The notes under the pieces are model-generated. The model worked only from the letters and a program-made list of their open reading frames with translations. It did no database searches and was not told where the DNA came from. From a virus, in the IMG/VR virus record IMGVR_UViG_3300042115_000063, positions 1 through 23,595 of that record: a DNA stretch of 23,595 bases; one strand, written 5' to 3'. Positions 5,804-21,532 of this stretch are shown here, in pieces; the first letter of the stretch is position 1, and each line of letters opens with the position of its first letter. A program made the position numbers and the translations under genes.

Positions 5804-6358
5804 TCAGACGGTTCGGTCGATGTCGATCACGTCGGCACGGAAACCGAGCCGCTTCGCGAAGAGCTTCGCGACCTTCTCGAAAGTGTTGCCGGTGACCCGC
5901 ACCGATCCGGCCGTCAGCATGTAGCGGCGGCCGATGCGGACGATCGAGCCACCCACGGTGCGGCCGTCGAAGGCGGCCGTGACGATGGCGCGGCCGGGGG
6001 CGTCGCGCAGAATGGCGACCTCGTTCGTGAACGAGTAGGTTCCGGCTTCGGCGTCCTGCTCAAGTCCTTCTTCGATGTACGTAGCGTCGTTGTCGACCTC
6101 AGCGCCGAGCACCGCGTCGAGCAGTTCCCCGGCTTCGGCGTCGGCCTCCGCCTTCGCGGCGTTGTACTGCTCGGCGAAGCGGGCTTCCTGCTCGGGAGTG
6201 ATCTCGTCGATCGCAAGCAGCAGTTCGACGTCGGCGGCGTGCAGCGCCTCCACCAGTTCGGCCTTCTTCATGGTCGAGCGTCCGGTGATGTCGCACTGAG
6301 CAGCGAGGCTACGCAGTTCGGCGACGGTCTTGCCGTTCAGGGTGGCGATGATGTCCAT
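5804..6358 (-). CDS. Protein with Rho_N/SAP-like N-terminal domain, 184 aa
   Basis: Residues 6-42 (LNGKTVAELRSLAAQCDITG...MKKAELVEALHA) match the helix-extended-helix pattern of the Rho N-terminal or SAP domain, which binds nucleic acids. A very acidic middle (EQDAEAGELLDAV...DNDATYIEEGLEQDAEAG) follows, then a β-rich C-terminal domain (REAP-type ILRDAPGRAIVTAAFDGRTV, RRYMLTAGSVRVT, KVAKLFAKRLGF) that I do not recognise. Start 6358 has the common leader ACGATAGGACGA before it. A DNA- or RNA-associated structural or regulatory role is inferred from the N-terminus only. Confidence 0.65.
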   Translation of the reverse strand: MDIIATLNGKTVAELRSLAAQCDITGRSTMKKAELVEALHAADVELLLAIDEITPEQEARFAEQYNAAKAEADAEAGELLDAVLGAEVDNDATYIEEGLEQDAEAGTYSFTNEVAILRDAPGRAIVTAAFDGRTVGGSIVRIGRRYMLTAGSVRVTGNTFEKVAKLFAKRLGFRADVIDIDRTV

Positions 6359-8001: not shown

Positions 8002-8141
8002 AGCTGTCCGAAGTGAAGAGTTCGGTTACTTCGTTTAGGGTACGAGAGGTCACGGGTTCGAATCCCGTCATTCCGAGTAGTCGGAATGTAGCTCAGTGGG
8101 AGAGCGCTAAAATTTCCGCACTCGCCTTGATTCGGACAGCT
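8002..8141 (+). ncRNA. Y RNA-like ncRNA 3 (clear permuted tRNA module)
   Basis: An 11-bp perfect terminal helix joins AGCTGTCCGAA (8002-8012) and TTCGGACAGCT (8131-8141). The signature is CGAAGTG 8009-8015, 7 nt, CGGTTACTTC 8023-8032, then CCG 8116-8118, 10 nt, GATTCG 8129-8134. The GUCCGAAG here matches a stretch conserved in animal Y RNAs. The module runs in permuted tRNA order. The T-arm is ACGGG, loop TTCGAAT, CCCGT (8052-8068). The acceptor helix is CATTCCGA (8069-8076), loop GTAG, TCGGAATG (8081-8088), then TA. The D-arm is GCTC, loop AGTGGGA, GAGC (8091-8105). TTTAG (8034-8038) can pair with CTAAA (8107-8111) in place of the anticodon stem. Confidence 0.9.
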
Positions 8142-8398: not shown

Positions 8399-8442
8399 TT
8401 CTTCGGGTGCAGTCCTCCCACCCCATCAAACGAGAGGACATC

Positions 8443-10104
8443 ATGACGAAGTTCAACAAGCCCGGAACGCGCACGGCGACGAAGTCGCCCGTTGCGAGCG
8501 CCCGCAAGGTCGGATTGACGACCGGCGAAGGCGCGCCGGGATTCAAGCGCGACGCTAAGGGCGAACTCTTCGTGCTCGCGGTCGGCCGATTCTTCGGCGA
8601 GAAGACGTTTTACGAAAAGCCCGACGCAGGCGCGCAGCGCTTCGTCGAACTCGTTCACGCGACCACGCTCGAAGACTCCGACTGGACTGCACGATTCCTC
8701 TCGTGGCTCCGCTCCGAAGCCAACATCCGTACGGCCGCGATCGTCGGCGCTGTCGAGTTCGTGCGCGCCGTGCAGCAGATCAACACGGAGTCGGGAACGA
8801 CGGTGCTGCGCTTCGACCACGCGACGCCACGCGCTGTGGTGCGTTCGGTGCTACAGCGCGCCGACGAGCCCGGGGAAATGTTGGCGTACTACCGGCAGAC
8901 CTACGGCCGTTCGATCCCGATCGCCGTGAAGCGCGGCATTGCCGACGCCGTCGCAGGCATCAACACCGACCGCAAGCCGTTGTACACGCAGTACTCCCTG
9001 CTCAAGTACGACACGCCGTCGCACGGCTACCGCTTCGGCGACGTCGTCGACACGGTGTGCCCGGCAACCACGCACCCCAGCGTGCGCGGGACGGAACTCG
9101 GCGCTCTCTTCGAGTTCGCGATCGACCGTCGTCACGGCCGCGAAGAAGACACGGACCGCTTCGCACTGCTCGGCGCGAACCGCGCCTTCCGGCGTCTGGC
9201 CGCTACAAATCCCGGCATCCTCACGGACGTCGAGAAGCTTCGCGCGGCTGGGCTCACGTGGGAAGACGCCCTCTCGCTCGGGGGTGACAAGCTCGACAAG
9301 CGGAAGCTGTGGGAAGCGCTCATCGACGCCGAAGCGCTCGGCTACATGGCGTTGCTCCGCAACCTACGGAACTTCGACGAAGCCGGAGTGTCGAAGGCGC
9401 ACGCGAAGAAGGTCGCCGAGATCATCGAAGACGAGGCGCGCGTGAAGTCGTCGCGTCAGCTTCCGTTCCGGTTCCTGTCGGCCTATCACGCCGCGCCTTC
9501 GGACCGGTGGAAGCAGGCGCTGACGGAAGCGCTTGACTACTCGACGACGAACATCCCGAAGCTGTCCGGCCGTACGCTCGTGCTGGTCGACACGTCGGCT
9601 TCGATGGAAGGCCGCTTGTCGGACAAGTCGAACGTGCGCTACGTCGATGTGGCGGCACTCTTCGGTGTCGCGCTCGCGCGCAACGCGTCGAAGGTCGACC
9701 TGTACGGGTTCGGCGACGGTGTATTCCGGCACGAACTCGCCTACGGCGGGTCGGTGCTGGGGCAGACGCAGCAGTTCGTCCGCCGTGTTGGGGAAGCCGG
9801 ACACGGAACGCAGATCGCAGCGTCGATGAAGGCGACGTTCGCGAAGCACGACCGCGTCGTGATCTTCACGGACATGCAGACGATGAGCCGCAACGCCTAC
9901 ACCTTCGGGTACGGCATCGGCAACGTATCGGAAGCGGTACCTGCGAACGTTCCCGTCTACGCGTGGAACCTCGCTGGGTACGAGGCATCGATGATGCCGA
10001 CCGGGTCGGGCAACCGGCACGAGTTCGGCGGGTTCTCGGACTCGGCGTTTAGCATCATGCAGACGCTCGAAGCCGGGCGCGACGGCCGGTGGCCGTGGGA
10101 GTAA
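8443..10104 (+). CDS. rsr: Ro60/Rsr-family RNA-binding protein (TROVE plus vWA domains)
   Basis: This 553-residue ring-forming RNA-binding protein has TROVE features throughout residues 25-365. They include DWTARFLSWLRSEANIRTAA (80-99), YMALLRNLRNFDEAGVS (301-317) and LPFRFLSAYHA (340-350). The C-terminal von Willebrand A domain has an intact metal site: DTSAS (383-387), the HGTQIAAS Thr (456) and FTDMQT Asp (477). Ro proteins bind Y RNAs on their outer face and misfolded RNA ends in the ring. In bacteria they can be tethered by Y RNA to the exonuclease PNPase. The five RNAs directly upstream fit this partnership. Start 8443 follows CGAGAGGACATC; an in-frame ATG at 8407 falls just after the RNA array and lacks a ribosome site. 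Confidence 0.93.
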   Translation: MTKFNKPGTRTATKSPVASARKVGLTTGEGAPGFKRDAKGELFVLAVGRFFGEKTFYEKPDAGAQRFVELVHATTLEDSDWTARFLSWLRSEANIRTAAIVGAVEFVRAVQQINTESGTTVLRFDHATPRAVVRSVLQRADEPGEMLAYYRQTYGRSIPIAVKRGIADAVAGINTDRKPLYTQYSLLKYDTPSHGYRFGDVVDTVCPATTHPSVRGTELGALFEFAIDRRHGREEDTDRFALLGANRAFRRLAATNPGILTDVEKLRAAGLTWEDALSLGGDKLDKRKLWEALIDAEALGYMALLRNLRNFDEAGVSKAHAKKVAEIIEDEARVKSSRQLPFRFLSAYHAAPSDRWKQALTEALDYSTTNIPKLSGRTLVLVDTSASMEGRLSDKSNVRYVDVAALFGVALARNASKVDLYGFGDGVFRHELAYGGSVLGQTQQFVRRVGEAGHGTQIAASMKATFAKHDRVVIFTDMQTMSRNAYTFGYGIGNVSEAVPANVPVYAWNLAGYEASMMPTGSGNRHEFGGFSDSAFSIMQTLEAGRDGRWPWE

Positions 10105-13109: not shown

Positions 13110-13158
13110 AAAAATATTTGCCGTAGCCCTTGCACCTATGTGCAGGGGCTACTAGGCT
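13110..13158 (+). promoter_or_regulatory. Promoter with A-tract and dyad over -35
   Basis: AAAAATATTTG (13110-13120), TTGCAC (13130-13135), a 17-bp spacer and TAGGCT (13153-13158) form the promoter. The -35 and spacer lie in a 13-bp dyad, GTAGCCCTTGCAC/GTGCAGGGGCTAC (13123-13152, one G-U). It may double as the terminator of the upstream operon or as an operator. Confidence 0.65.
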
Positions 13159-18078: not shown

Positions 18079-18612
18079 TTAACGGCCGATCTCTGGCCGG
18101 ACGGCTACCGTGCTCGCCATGCTCTCTTGCCGCGCCGCGAGCATCGGCCCCATATCGGCGAGCGCTTCGCGAAGCGCGGCGCTCGCGCGCGCGCGCTGCG
18201 AAGCGTCGAGATCGGCGGCGTCGAGCGCCTTCGTGAGCGCCTTCGCGATCATCTGCGCCTCAGCACGCAACGAATCGATGTATCGCTCAGACAACCCCGC
18301 GCGCACCGCATCGGCGCTCACCTTCGTTAGATGCTTGCGCTCATCGCGACTCTCGCGAATCCACTCGCGCAGCTCTTGCCCGCGCAGGCGGACCGCGATC
18401 TCGTAGTCGGTCGCCTTCTCGAAGTCGACGCCGTTCGAGTCGATGAGCGACCGTTCCCGCATCGCTTCGAGCTGCACGCGCTCATCGATCCACGCGGCCC
18501 GGTACGCGCTCCGGCGCACCTCCCCAAGGATCGCCTCCCATGGACTGATGTTGAGTTCGCCCGCCCACGGCCGCCGCGCAAGCTCGTACGTCGGATCGCT
18601 CTCGTCGTCCAT
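18079..18612 (-). CDS. Putative terminase small subunit, 177 aa
   Basis: The body matches the actinophage small-terminase type. ISPWEAILGEVRRSAYRAAW (about 22-41) is followed by LREWIRESRDERKHLTKVSA and DAVRAGLSERYIDSLRAEAQ, then MIAKALTKALDAADL. The pattern 'W..ER..L..VS..A..AGL.ER......A..IA.AL..ALD' is the one I associate with these proteins, which recognise the packaging site. ATG 18612 was preferred over GTG 18615 because GAGAGGTGAC sits at better spacing. It lies more than 13 kb from terL, unusual for a terminase pair, so a misassignment is possible. Confidence 0.5.
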   Translation of the reverse strand: MDDESDPTYELARRPWAGELNISPWEAILGEVRRSAYRAAWIDERVQLEAMRERSLIDSNGVDFEKATDYEIAVRLRGQELREWIRESRDERKHLTKVSADAVRAGLSERYIDSLRAEAQMIAKALTKALDAADLDASQRARASAALREALADMGPMLAARQESMASTVAVRPEIGR

Positions 18613-18656
18613 CACGTCACCTCTCGAATGTCACGTTGCGTAACCGATTTTCGGGC

Positions 18657-18953
18657 CTGTGCAGGGTTGCTGTGCAGGCTGTGCAGGGATCAGTTGCATT
18701 TTCAGTTCTACATTCTATGTTGTACTACATATGTTCTAATTTTCTTTCCTAAGAACAGAAACAGGAATCATCTCTGCAATCCCTGCACACCGCAGGTCAA
18801 ACCATGTATCGAACCCTGCACGATCCCTGCACACGATCCCTGCACACATCCCTGCACAGCACATACCCGATATCCCCCGCAGTTACTAGACTTTCACGCT
18901 CTGCAACGCTGTGCAGGGTTGCTGTGCAGGGATCGCCCCCGATCCCTGCACAG
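18657..18953. repeat. Iteron array, about 11 copies of TGTGCAGGG(ATC)
   Basis: Forward copies start at 18658, 18671 and 18680, and at 18910 and 18923. Reverse copies (CCCTGCACA) are near 18781, 18814 (one mismatch), 18825, 18838, 18850 and 18944. A 22-nt block holding two forward copies is repeated exactly at 18657-18678 and 18909-18930. Copies 18822-18858 are tightly spaced (13 bp apart). Confidence 0.85.
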
Positions 18954-18954
18954 C
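18921..18954. repeat. Perfect 15-bp hairpin formed by two iterons
   Basis: 18921-18935 and 18940-18954 are perfect inverted copies with a CCCC loop. It lies right after the helicase gene on the minus strand, so it could be both an origin structure and a terminator. Confidence 0.75.
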
Positions 18955-18975
18955 GATTTTGGTTACTCTCCGTAA

Positions 18976-20586
18976 TCAGATTTCGGAGCCGAGCCGTGCG
19001 CCGCGAAGCACTTGAACCTGGCGGCCGTCCACCCGCGTACGCGCGCCTTCGAGCTGCCCCGGATACGCCGCGAGCAGGTCACGGAAGAACACGTTCTTAC
19101 CCTTCGCCATGTACCCCTCCGACGCGCACCACATGGTGTACGCCTCGTACACGCTGTCTTTCAGCGCTGCGGCGTCGGGCGACATATCGAAGGTGAGGCA
19201 GTCGGACGCGAACGCCTTGATTGGGCTGGCCGACCGCTCGACGTCTTCCATCGACGCCGCGACGCTCTCACCGATGGTGAACCGGCCTTCCCGGTCCCAC
19301 AGCCGGTCCGCGCCGTCTAGCGCCCATGTGAAGATGCCCGGCAATTCGTCGTGCAGTGTCCGCTTGAGGTTGAAGTCCTCGCGGCCTAGGAATCCTTCGA
19401 CGCGGATGCGCAGCGGCAGGAACCGCGACGCGAGCGCGCCCGTCGAGTCACGGAGATCAGGCATGTCGTTCGAGACGATCATGAGCCGAGCCCCGAGCTT
19501 GACGTTCAGCTCGTCCCGGTTCTTCCGGTTCACGGTCACCGGGTCCTCACCCGAGATCATGAGCAGCTTCTCGACGATGGCCGGATCGCTCTTGCCGATA
19601 CGCGCGTCGCCCACGATCGCGAGGCGCTTCCCGAGCATGGGCGCGAGGCCGAAGGGCTCGGCGAGGCGCGCCATGGTCGGGTGGTCGACCTGCCCCGTCC
19701 CGCCGAGCAGTTGCTCAAGCACCCACGCGATCGTGCTCTTCCCCGAGCGGCGCGGGCCGACGAGCGTCATGATCTTGTGCAGCCCGGTCGAGCCTGCGAG
19801 CACGTAGCCGAACCACTCTTGCAGCAGCGCGTGCGAGTCCGTGTCGCCTGGCCACAGTTCGTCCAGGAACTTGAGCCACCGGTCACACCGCGCGTTCGCG
19901 TCGTAGTCGACCACGACGGCCGTGTCCGTGAAGAAGCTCGGCGTGTGGTCGACGATGGCACGCGCACCCGCCCCGCCTTCGCGCGGGCACCACAGCAAGC
20001 CGTTCCGCACGCACGTGATCTCGTCCGCTGGCATCGTCTCCGACGCTTCGGACCGCCGCAGCCATGCCGGAACCTCCATCGACTCGCGCATACGCATCTG
20101 CGACGCCATCGCTTCGACGACCTCCCGCACGTTCGACGTGTTCGGCGACCACGGACGCGGCTCGGCCCCGTCTTTCGTCATCTGAATGTACGAGGCATCG
20201 GCGAGCAGCGTCCGCACGGCGTCCGCGACGGCGTAGCGGTTGTCCGCGCCGCCCATGCGCAGGTACGCGCCCCCGGTGTCGCCCTCGCGGTACAGGTACC
20301 ACTCATCGCGCCAGTGCTTGAGGTGAATCCCTGCGTCCGCGAAGAGCAGGAGGAGGAAGCGCGCGACCTTGTCCGGTTCCTTCGGACCGGGAACCGGCCC
20401 GTCCAGGGCCACGCTCTCAGGCAGGAACCGGTATTCCTGGTCGAGGTCGACGACGGCCATCACGTCGGGCATCTCGTCGGCGCGCGCTCGCGTGCCGGTG
20501 ATCCCGCCGACGATACTTGCAGCGAAGTCGTCCGTTTCGGGCGTGCTAGGGTCGGTTTCAGGGTTATCTGTCTGGTCGTCGATCAT
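18976..20586 (-). CDS. D5-type SF3 DNA helicase (phage/plasmid primase-helicase family)
   Basis: This protein has about 536 residues. Walker A GPRRSGKST (277-285) sits in KIMTLVGPRRSGKSTIAWVL. RLAIVGDARIG (321-331) is the Walker B region and RLMIVSNDMPDL (367-378) is sensor 1. STGALASRFLPLRI provides the arginine finger (Arg 388). The N-terminal half fits the D5_N region. It would unwind the origin for phage replication. The reading frame extends to GTG 20613, but the last codons of the prim-pol gene overlap there, and AAAGGTGA sits well before ATG 20586. Confidence 0.88.
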   Translation of the reverse strand: MIDDQTDNPETDPSTPETDDFAASIVGGITGTRARADEMPDVMAVVDLDQEYRFLPESVALDGPVPGPKEPDKVARFLLLLFADAGIHLKHWRDEWYLYREGDTGGAYLRMGGADNRYAVADAVRTLLADASYIQMTKDGAEPRPWSPNTSNVREVVEAMASQMRMRESMEVPAWLRRSEASETMPADEITCVRNGLLWCPREGGAGARAIVDHTPSFFTDTAVVVDYDANARCDRWLKFLDELWPGDTDSHALLQEWFGYVLAGSTGLHKIMTLVGPRRSGKSTIAWVLEQLLGGTGQVDHPTMARLAEPFGLAPMLGKRLAIVGDARIGKSDPAIVEKLLMISGEDPVTVNRKNRDELNVKLGARLMIVSNDMPDLRDSTGALASRFLPLRIRVEGFLGREDFNLKRTLHDELPGIFTWALDGADRLWDREGRFTIGESVAASMEDVERSASPIKAFASDCLTFDMSPDAAALKDSVYEAYTMWCASEGYMAKGKNVFFRDLLAAYPGQLEGARTRVDGRQVQVLRGARLGSEI

Positions 20587-20602
20587 CGCTCTCGTCACCT
20601 TT

Positions 20603-21532
20603 CTACGTTTCACGGACGGGAGCGTGATCGACGGCTTTTGCCGTCTGTGCTGCCCGTCCCGCTTCCCAACCGGACGTGAAGGTTCGCATCTGCTGCTCGG
20701 CCGTGTCGTTCGCTCCGGCCTCGCTCATCGCCTTAAAGCACCACGCTCGCGCGGCGGCTTCGCTCGGCTCGCCGTATAGAACTGACAGCGTACCGAGCCG
20801 GAAGGCGGTCCGGTTGAGCATGTCGTTCCGCGTTCCGGTTGCCGATCGTGCCAACTTCCGCACGCTCATCGCTGCTTCGTACTTCGCCCACCGGGCTCCA
20901 CCTTCGCCCATGCGTGCGCGGATGTCCGCGTTCGTCATGGGATCGACGCTAGCGCTCCGGCGTTTCTTGCACAGCGGAATCAGCCACTCGGGCGCGTGGC
21001 GCACGGTCGTGATCTTGCGGCCGTCCCGCTCGATCAAGCGGTACGCGCCGACTTCGGGCGCGCGCACGTAACCCCGGATGCCGCGCACGTCGAGCCCCGG
21101 CGCGAGGTGCTTCGAAGAGTTGCGGATGCCGCCTTCGCTCGCGCTGGCCTCATCCCACTTGAAGTAGACGTGTGCGCCGCCGCTGGGCGTACGCACGGTC
21201 ATGGTGCTGGTGAAGTCGTTGACCGTCCCGCCGTGCTTGCGGGCAAGGTCACGCAGGCTGCCGAAGCCGTCAGCGTCCTTGACGTCGATGTCGAGTACCC
21301 ATATGCCGGACTCCGGCCCGGTGGCGATGCCGACGCCGCACGGCGCGTAGTTGCCCGTCCACCAACCCTGAATCTGCGCGAAATCGGTGGTTGCACGCTC
21401 GGGCCACTCCGTGAACACCGGCGTACCGGTGTCGGTGCGCAGCGGGAACACGCGGAACCCGAGCCGCGAGCAGGCGTACGCCGCCGCGCCGGGAGTCGCC
21501 GAAGTGAACCGGGAATAAGTCACACTAGCCAC
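20603..21532 (-). CDS. Bifunctional DNA primase/polymerase (prim-pol) protein, 309 aa
   Basis: The N-terminal prim-pol domain has GIWVLDIDVKD (76-86) with the catalytic Asp pair, RTPSGGAHVYFKW (114-126) with the conserved His, and APGLDVRGIRGYVRAP (144-159). The last 100 residues form a helical domain rich in Arg. It would make primers for replication, coupled with the downstream helicase, which starts right behind it. Start GTG 21532 is preceded by GAAAGGAT. An overlapping ATG (21537) in another frame hits a stop at once. Confidence 0.88.
   Translation of the reverse strand: MASVTYSRFTSATPGAAAYACSRLGFRVFPLRTDTGTPVFTEWPERATTDFAQIQGWWTGNYAPCGVGIATGPESGIWVLDIDVKDADGFGSLRDLARKHGGTVNDFTSTMTVRTPSGGAHVYFKWDEASASEGGIRNSSKHLAPGLDVRGIRGYVRAPEVGAYRLIERDGRKITTVRHAPEWLIPLCKKRRSASVDPMTNADIRARMGEGGARWAKYEAAMSVRKLARSATGTRNDMLNRTAFRLGTLSVLYGEPSEAAARAWCFKAMSEAGANDTAEQQMRTFTSGWEAGRAAQTAKAVDHAPVRET

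Follow-up and report, generated by a model that had tools for sequence, protein, structure and literature searches.

An iteron array directly behind a D5 helicase gene as a candidate replication origin of a tailed phage

What function do the short repeats crowded behind a phage helicase gene serve, and which protein reads them? The question is raised by positions 18616-18975 of the window, the whole stretch of 23,595 nucleotides analysed here (IMGVR_UViG_3300042115_000063), which encodes a portal and a terminase large subunit and represents a fragment of a phage genome. The region coincided exactly with the intergenic interval that separates a D5 gene, with its stop codon at 18976, from its neighbour at 18615. 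About 11 repeat copies had been counted there in a preliminary description, and this number was confirmed: the gap contained nine exact copies of TGTGCAGGG/CCCTGCACA and two copies with one mismatch (18671, TGTGCAGGC; 18814, CGTGCAGGG). The alignment of relatives added a degenerate twelfth site at a conserved position (18772-18780, ATTGCAGAG in the window). The nine-letter iterons occurred in mixed orientation within the array, the first of them about 23 bp past the D5 stop codon. In the whole window, 10 exact copies of TGTGCAGGG were found versus 0.06 expected, and none of 100 shuffles reached 10. The single exact copy outside the array, at position 13139, looks like chance, since stray copies in the relatives were about as common as those of a reversed control pattern. 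The elements of the region are given below; all iterons were placed by the alignment of relatives together with an exact match, except that A4 and B2 were located by mismatch search and alignment, and A6 by alignment.

18616..18975, no strand: candidate replication origin, the iteron-bearing intergenic region from the D5 helicase stop codon to the next gene
18944..18952, minus strand: iteron C1
18923..18931, plus strand: iteron C2
18910..18918, plus strand: iteron C3
18850..18858, minus strand: iteron A1
18838..18846, minus strand: iteron A2
18825..18833, minus strand: iteron A3
18814..18822, minus strand: iteron A4, one mismatch (CGTGCAGGG)
18781..18789, minus strand: iteron A5
18772..18780, minus strand: iteron A6, degenerate (ATTGCAGAG; ATTGCAGGG in most relatives)
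18680..18688, plus strand: iteron B1
18671..18679, plus strand: iteron B2, one mismatch (TGTGCAGGC)
18658..18666, plus strand: iteron B3
18689..18771, no strand: AT-rich spacer with inward-facing A and B iterons on either side, proposed unwinding element (base composition and relatives)
18921..18954, no strand: perfect 15-bp inverted repeat with a 4-nt loop, built from iterons C1 and C2

In the orientation of the helicase gene, group C consisted of one forward and two reverse sites, group A of six forward sites spaced as 4+2 and followed by the AT-rich spacer, and group B of three reverse sites. The clusters of mixed orientation that had been described around an AT-rich stretch were thus borne out, with the A and B sets flanking 18689-18771. 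The window had a G+C content of about 62%, the lowest 40-bp stretch of the AT-rich region had 25%, and the AT-rich stretch flanked by the iterons was 80-90 bp long. Blocks within the spacer such as AATTAGAACATATGTA, ATAGAAT and TGAAAATGCAA were conserved in the relatives, including the divergent relative L011 described below. The spacer was therefore conserved in sequence as well as in composition, and a further factor may bind there.

The array was present at the same place in seven relatives, which were picked by their D5 protein; no near DNA relatives were found among named phages. The aligned relatives shared 12 iteron positions, with individual records scoring 9 to 12, and the proportion of invariant alignment columns was 69% in the iterons versus 41% in the rest. 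Each record of the relatives of about 60 kb carried one array, with no copies at other promoters. These distributions bear on the idea that the repeats serve as operators, bound by a repressor of the phage, or as a parS-like partition site. The position of the array upstream of the phrog_3678 gene and the presence of ParB-like genes near a few related arrays could be cited for it. But the single cluster per genome, other promoters without copies, the failure to find a promoter-like site when one was looked for in the array region, the absence of ParB neighbours at most related arrays and the tracking of the motif with the helicase, shown below, made this the least probable of the readings considered.

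The genes and protein domains relevant to reading the array were as follows.

18976..20613, minus strand: D5/DUF5906 (SF3) helicase, 545 aa, proposed initiator, 3' end abutting the array (PF19263, E 1.7e-14)
18979..19224, minus strand: D5 C-terminal winged-helix domain (about residues 464-545), proposed iteron reader (RFX5 profile match, predicted helix/strand order, covariation)
19009..19047, minus strand: wing (residues 523-535, GARTRVDGRQVQV), proposed specificity determinant (comparison of L011 and L012)
20603..21532, minus strand: Prim-Pol (AEP) primase-polymerase, proposed origin primer (PF09250, E 4.1e-29)

The array had been placed beside helicase and primase genes. This was correct for the helicase, whose stop codon abuts the gap, whereas the prim-pol gene was 1.6 kb away, beyond D5. 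The PF19263 match of the D5 protein scored 54.8 bits against a cut-off of 27.6. Its structure model (pLDDT 81) matched the SaPI5 primase-helicase 7ola with a Z of 31.3 over 393 residues, and the match spanned D5 residues 65-545, including the winged helix. Additionally, a profile match was found between the D5 C-terminal region and the DNA-binding chain of RFX5 (8zjr, E 5e-4). The preliminary description had seen no plain Rep initiator, but by this model the D5 protein itself is of the Rep type. On the other side of the array, the phrog_3678 gene (18079-18615, minus strand) followed directly in six of the six relatives checked, and its protein gave an all-helical model with no confident match in the PDB. 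Elsewhere in the window, the gene of a TROVE (Ro60-like) RNA-binding protein (8407-10104) was located near a tRNA-Pro (8009-8076).

This arrangement is that of SaPI/PICI origins. In PICIs, the origin is located immediately 3' of the initiator gene, with one set of iterons on either side of an AT-rich region (PMC6092414); in 2018 that layout was described as shared by no other known bacterial replicon (PMC6092414). In the window, the iterons were likewise located immediately 3' of the helicase gene, two sets of them flanked an AT-rich region, and the protein was an SF3/D5 Rep helicase with a predicted C-terminal dsDNA-binding domain and the fold match to 7ola. The window differed in belonging to a tailed phage that encodes its own portal and terminase and has near relatives of about 60 kb, and not to a PICI satellite, as well as in the separate prim-pol gene, the iteron TGTGCAGGG and the 12 sites arranged as 9+3. 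SCCmec Cch2, a homologue of SaPI5 Rep, is likewise a D5-type helicase. In isolation, its C-terminal domain binds the repeats of a putative origin located just 3' of the Cch2 gene, but this system has only three 5-nt iterons and a primase other than that of the window (PMC7581432). In P4 (NC_001609), crr was located about 46 bp behind the alpha gene and had type 1 repeats TGTTCACC in both orientations, a placement similar to that in the window. The origin-binding domain of P4 gp-alpha is a winged helix like that of RFX1 (PMC10516667). P4 differs in having two distinct sites, with over 4 kb between crr and ori1, where the relatives of the window have a single array per record, and in its Toprim-type primase and its iteron (TGTTCACC versus TGTGCAGGG). 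The origin of pRN1 likewise follows the gene for its AEP/SF3 replication protein, ORF904 (PMC4234260), but it is a stem-loop without iterons, whereas the C1/C2 hairpin of the window was made of iterons. Berkner et al. proposed that AEP-SF3 phages use stem-loops and not iterons (PMC4234260). This model may hold for BPP-1 (a near twin of BIP-1), in which no iteron array was found behind the D5 gene, but not for most of the D5 genes sampled here.

The extent of the arrangement was assessed in two ways. A scan with the motif found two close copies in at least 119 viral stretches versus 39 for the reversed control. Among the matches listed, a helicase-type gene adjoined or was nearest to the array in 39 of 47 loci with at least five copies, usually within 50 bp, and 37 of these 39 helicase-type proteins had a DUF5906 match. 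The helicase gene was 245-560 bp further off in L084 and L095, four other records with at least five copies carried the D5 gene elsewhere (again among the matches listed), and L021 and L094 were short fragments without a D5 gene. A second sample, blind to the motif, comprised D5 genes from viral contigs and bacterial genomes chosen regardless of repeats (122 proteins, non-redundant at 70% identity). A cluster, defined as an 8-mer repeated at least four times on both strands within 400 bp behind the stop codon, was present behind 88 of the 122 genes, compared with 20 of the 2,119 tiles taken from these loci as controls and one of 2,440 shuffles. Clusters were absent behind the other 34, most of which were in the window-type set (26/52). 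The repeat differed by clade (TGTGCAGGG, TGTGCGGG, TGTGCGGCAT, TGTGAAGGG, TGTGCCGGG, GCGCACGGG, GGTTACGC and others). Among named phages, Moraxella phage Mcat5 carried TGTGCAGGG, Stenotrophomonas phage S1 TGTGCGGG and Burkholderia phage AH2 AGGTCCGAA. An array of exact TGTGCAGGG copies was also present in a prophage of Methylobacter tundripaludum SV96 (L369). A plasmid search gave matches of partial coverage only, and a literature search for the motif letters returned only primers and unrelated text. These sequence comparisons indicate that iterons behind the D5 gene are common in tailed phages.

Which protein, then, would bind the iterons? The D5 helicase, the prim-pol protein and a host factor had all been suggested. 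TGTGCAGGG was found with both Toprim-type and Prim-Pol-type primases, which makes the shared helicase part the likelier reader. Among 54 Toprim-type proteins, iteron distance tracked the distance of the C-terminal domain (rho 0.48, partial r 0.41, permutation p 0.002) and did not track that of the primase (partial r -0.11) or the motor (-0.22), although such covariation can be inflated by the relatedness of the sequences. With a sliding window of 80 residues, covariation peaked at the C-terminus (0.50), and a second, smaller peak was located between primase and motor (residues 361-440 of the D5 homologue, L189 numbering). Residue-level mutual information for naming contacts was too confounded and was dropped. 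Of the suggested readers, D5 was thus favoured through its winged helix and the prim-pol was not; the covariation indicates that the D5 C-terminal winged helix reads the iterons.

Two relatives pointed to a smaller part of this domain. In L011 (IMGVR_UViG_3300030736_000020, array at about 2283-2600), nearly all iterons had become TGT(T/G)CCGGG-like, with one old-type TGTGCAGGG left, and the spacer was largely conserved despite the changed iterons. The L011 D5 protein was 88% identical to that of the window overall, 95.5% in the motor and 100% in the recognition helix, but 69.5% in the C-terminal domain, where the differences clustered in the wing (RTRVDGRQVQV to KNRVDGKLVPM). L012 was the converse case, in which the recognition helix was 57% identical, the wing was conserved and the iterons were kept. 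Since the wing had changed with the iterons in L011 and was conserved with them in L012, the comparison suggests that the iteron sequence is set by the wing, although with few lineages it is a lead rather than proof. A change from R to K in the first residue of the wing seemed to accompany TGTT-type iterons in L011 and L370, but was set aside as a marker of such iterons because the cases were too few.

The same relatives help to judge whether the repeats are single-stranded template sites read by the prim-pol, like the GTG sites of the pRN1 and NrS-1 primases. GTG is contained in CTGTGCAGGG of the iteron; the pRN1 primase requires a template GTG (PMC8076596), and the NrS-1 primase uses GTGA/GTGG (PMC8718748). 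But the same motif occurred with unrelated Toprim primases, and primase distance did not track it. The L011 prim-pol was 81% identical to that of the window, no more changed than in relatives with unchanged iterons (63-85%), yet many of its iterons lacked GTG; conversely, the iterons were unchanged in G004, with a prim-pol of 63% identity. Moreover, the pRN1 origin does not need its GTG motifs (PMC4234260). Template recognition as the function of the array was therefore considered highly improbable, almost as much so as the operator or partition reading. Because the SCCmec primase prefers starting at its own iterons (PMC7581432), a secondary priming role is possible.

By weight matrix, with counts that depend on the threshold, the commonest number of sites was 12 (27 of 82 arrays), with a sharp fall above 12, and the commonest split was 6+6 (22 of 82) with a median gap of 88 bp. 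Among relatives whose structures have been solved, the assemblies are dodecamers or head-to-head double hexamers (ASFV PrimPol, mpox E5). Twelve sites and a hexameric SF3 helicase together suggest a double hexamer on 12 iterons, with one iteron per helicase subunit as a hypothesis. In the clade of the window, the 12 sites were split 9+3, as though group C had switched to the side of the helicase, which gives no simple fit to one hexamer per side. The AT-rich spacer was clear in this clade, whereas many high-GC Toprim-type arrays had GC-rich spacers. In L208, L211, L379 and L392, the G+C content of the spacer between inward-facing iterons equalled or exceeded that of the genome, so melting of these spacers would not depend on AT-richness.

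An initiator-binding origin, as first suggested for this region, is supported as by far the best reading, with similar arrays behind most sampled D5 genes and the layout of the characterised SaPI/PICI origins (PMC6092414); origin activity is inferred. We consider it highly likely that the array is the replication origin of the phage and that the D5/SF3 helicase is its initiator, acting through the C-terminal winged helix. In the proposed mechanism, this RFX/P4-alpha-type winged helix would bind the TGTGCAGGG iterons in double-stranded DNA, and iterons facing across the AT-rich spacer would assemble the helicase into rings, probably as a pair of hexamers on 12 iterons. These rings would melt the spacer, and the exposed strands would be primed by the prim-pol, or by the primase domain in relatives. 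The GC-skew analysis put forward as a check was only weakly consistent with this location, since the cumulative minimum was 2-5 kb from the array on the prim-pol side in three relatives with genomes that are related to one another, and the skew also follows gene orientation (r 0.2-0.4).

The position of terminase genes in some relatives raised the alternative that the small subunit of the terminase binds the repeats as a packaging site (pac/cos). The array was closely followed by terS and terL in many Toprim-type phages, and in L021 an array with eight copies of TGTGCAGGG (5860-6190) was near a terminase gene in an 18.6-kb fragment from which the D5 helicase was absent. Against this, terL was roughly 11-15 kb from the array in several relatives of the window, the repeat sequence covaried with the helicase C-terminus, the neighbouring phrog_3678 protein was modelled as all-helical without a confident PDB match, and crr of P4 is behind the alpha gene without an adjacent terminase. 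A packaging site was thus judged very unlikely, if the least so of the three alternatives.

The proposed origin has a familiar mechanism; what appears new is how widely it is spread, the pattern of 12 sites and the wing code. It is possible, although somewhat doubtful, that a single origin grammar is common to the tailed phages that have D5-type initiators: 12 iterons, each for one subunit of a helicase double hexamer, would lie behind the gene of their own initiator, gene and site thereby moving as a unit, and their letters would be read by the RFX-like wing and not by the recognition helix, as a decodable protein-DNA code diversifying in concert. To our knowledge, most environmental phage origins are unmapped, and a repeat array directly behind the helicase gene offers a simple rule for finding origins in contigs and prophages. 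The results indicate that tailed phages commonly have an organisation described as peculiar to PICIs (PMC6092414), which bears on where the satellites got their replicons. The many natural pairs of iteron and winged helix form a data set from which DNA reading by this domain could be worked out, and with a count of 12 that recurs, the model of double-hexamer loading can be tested directly.
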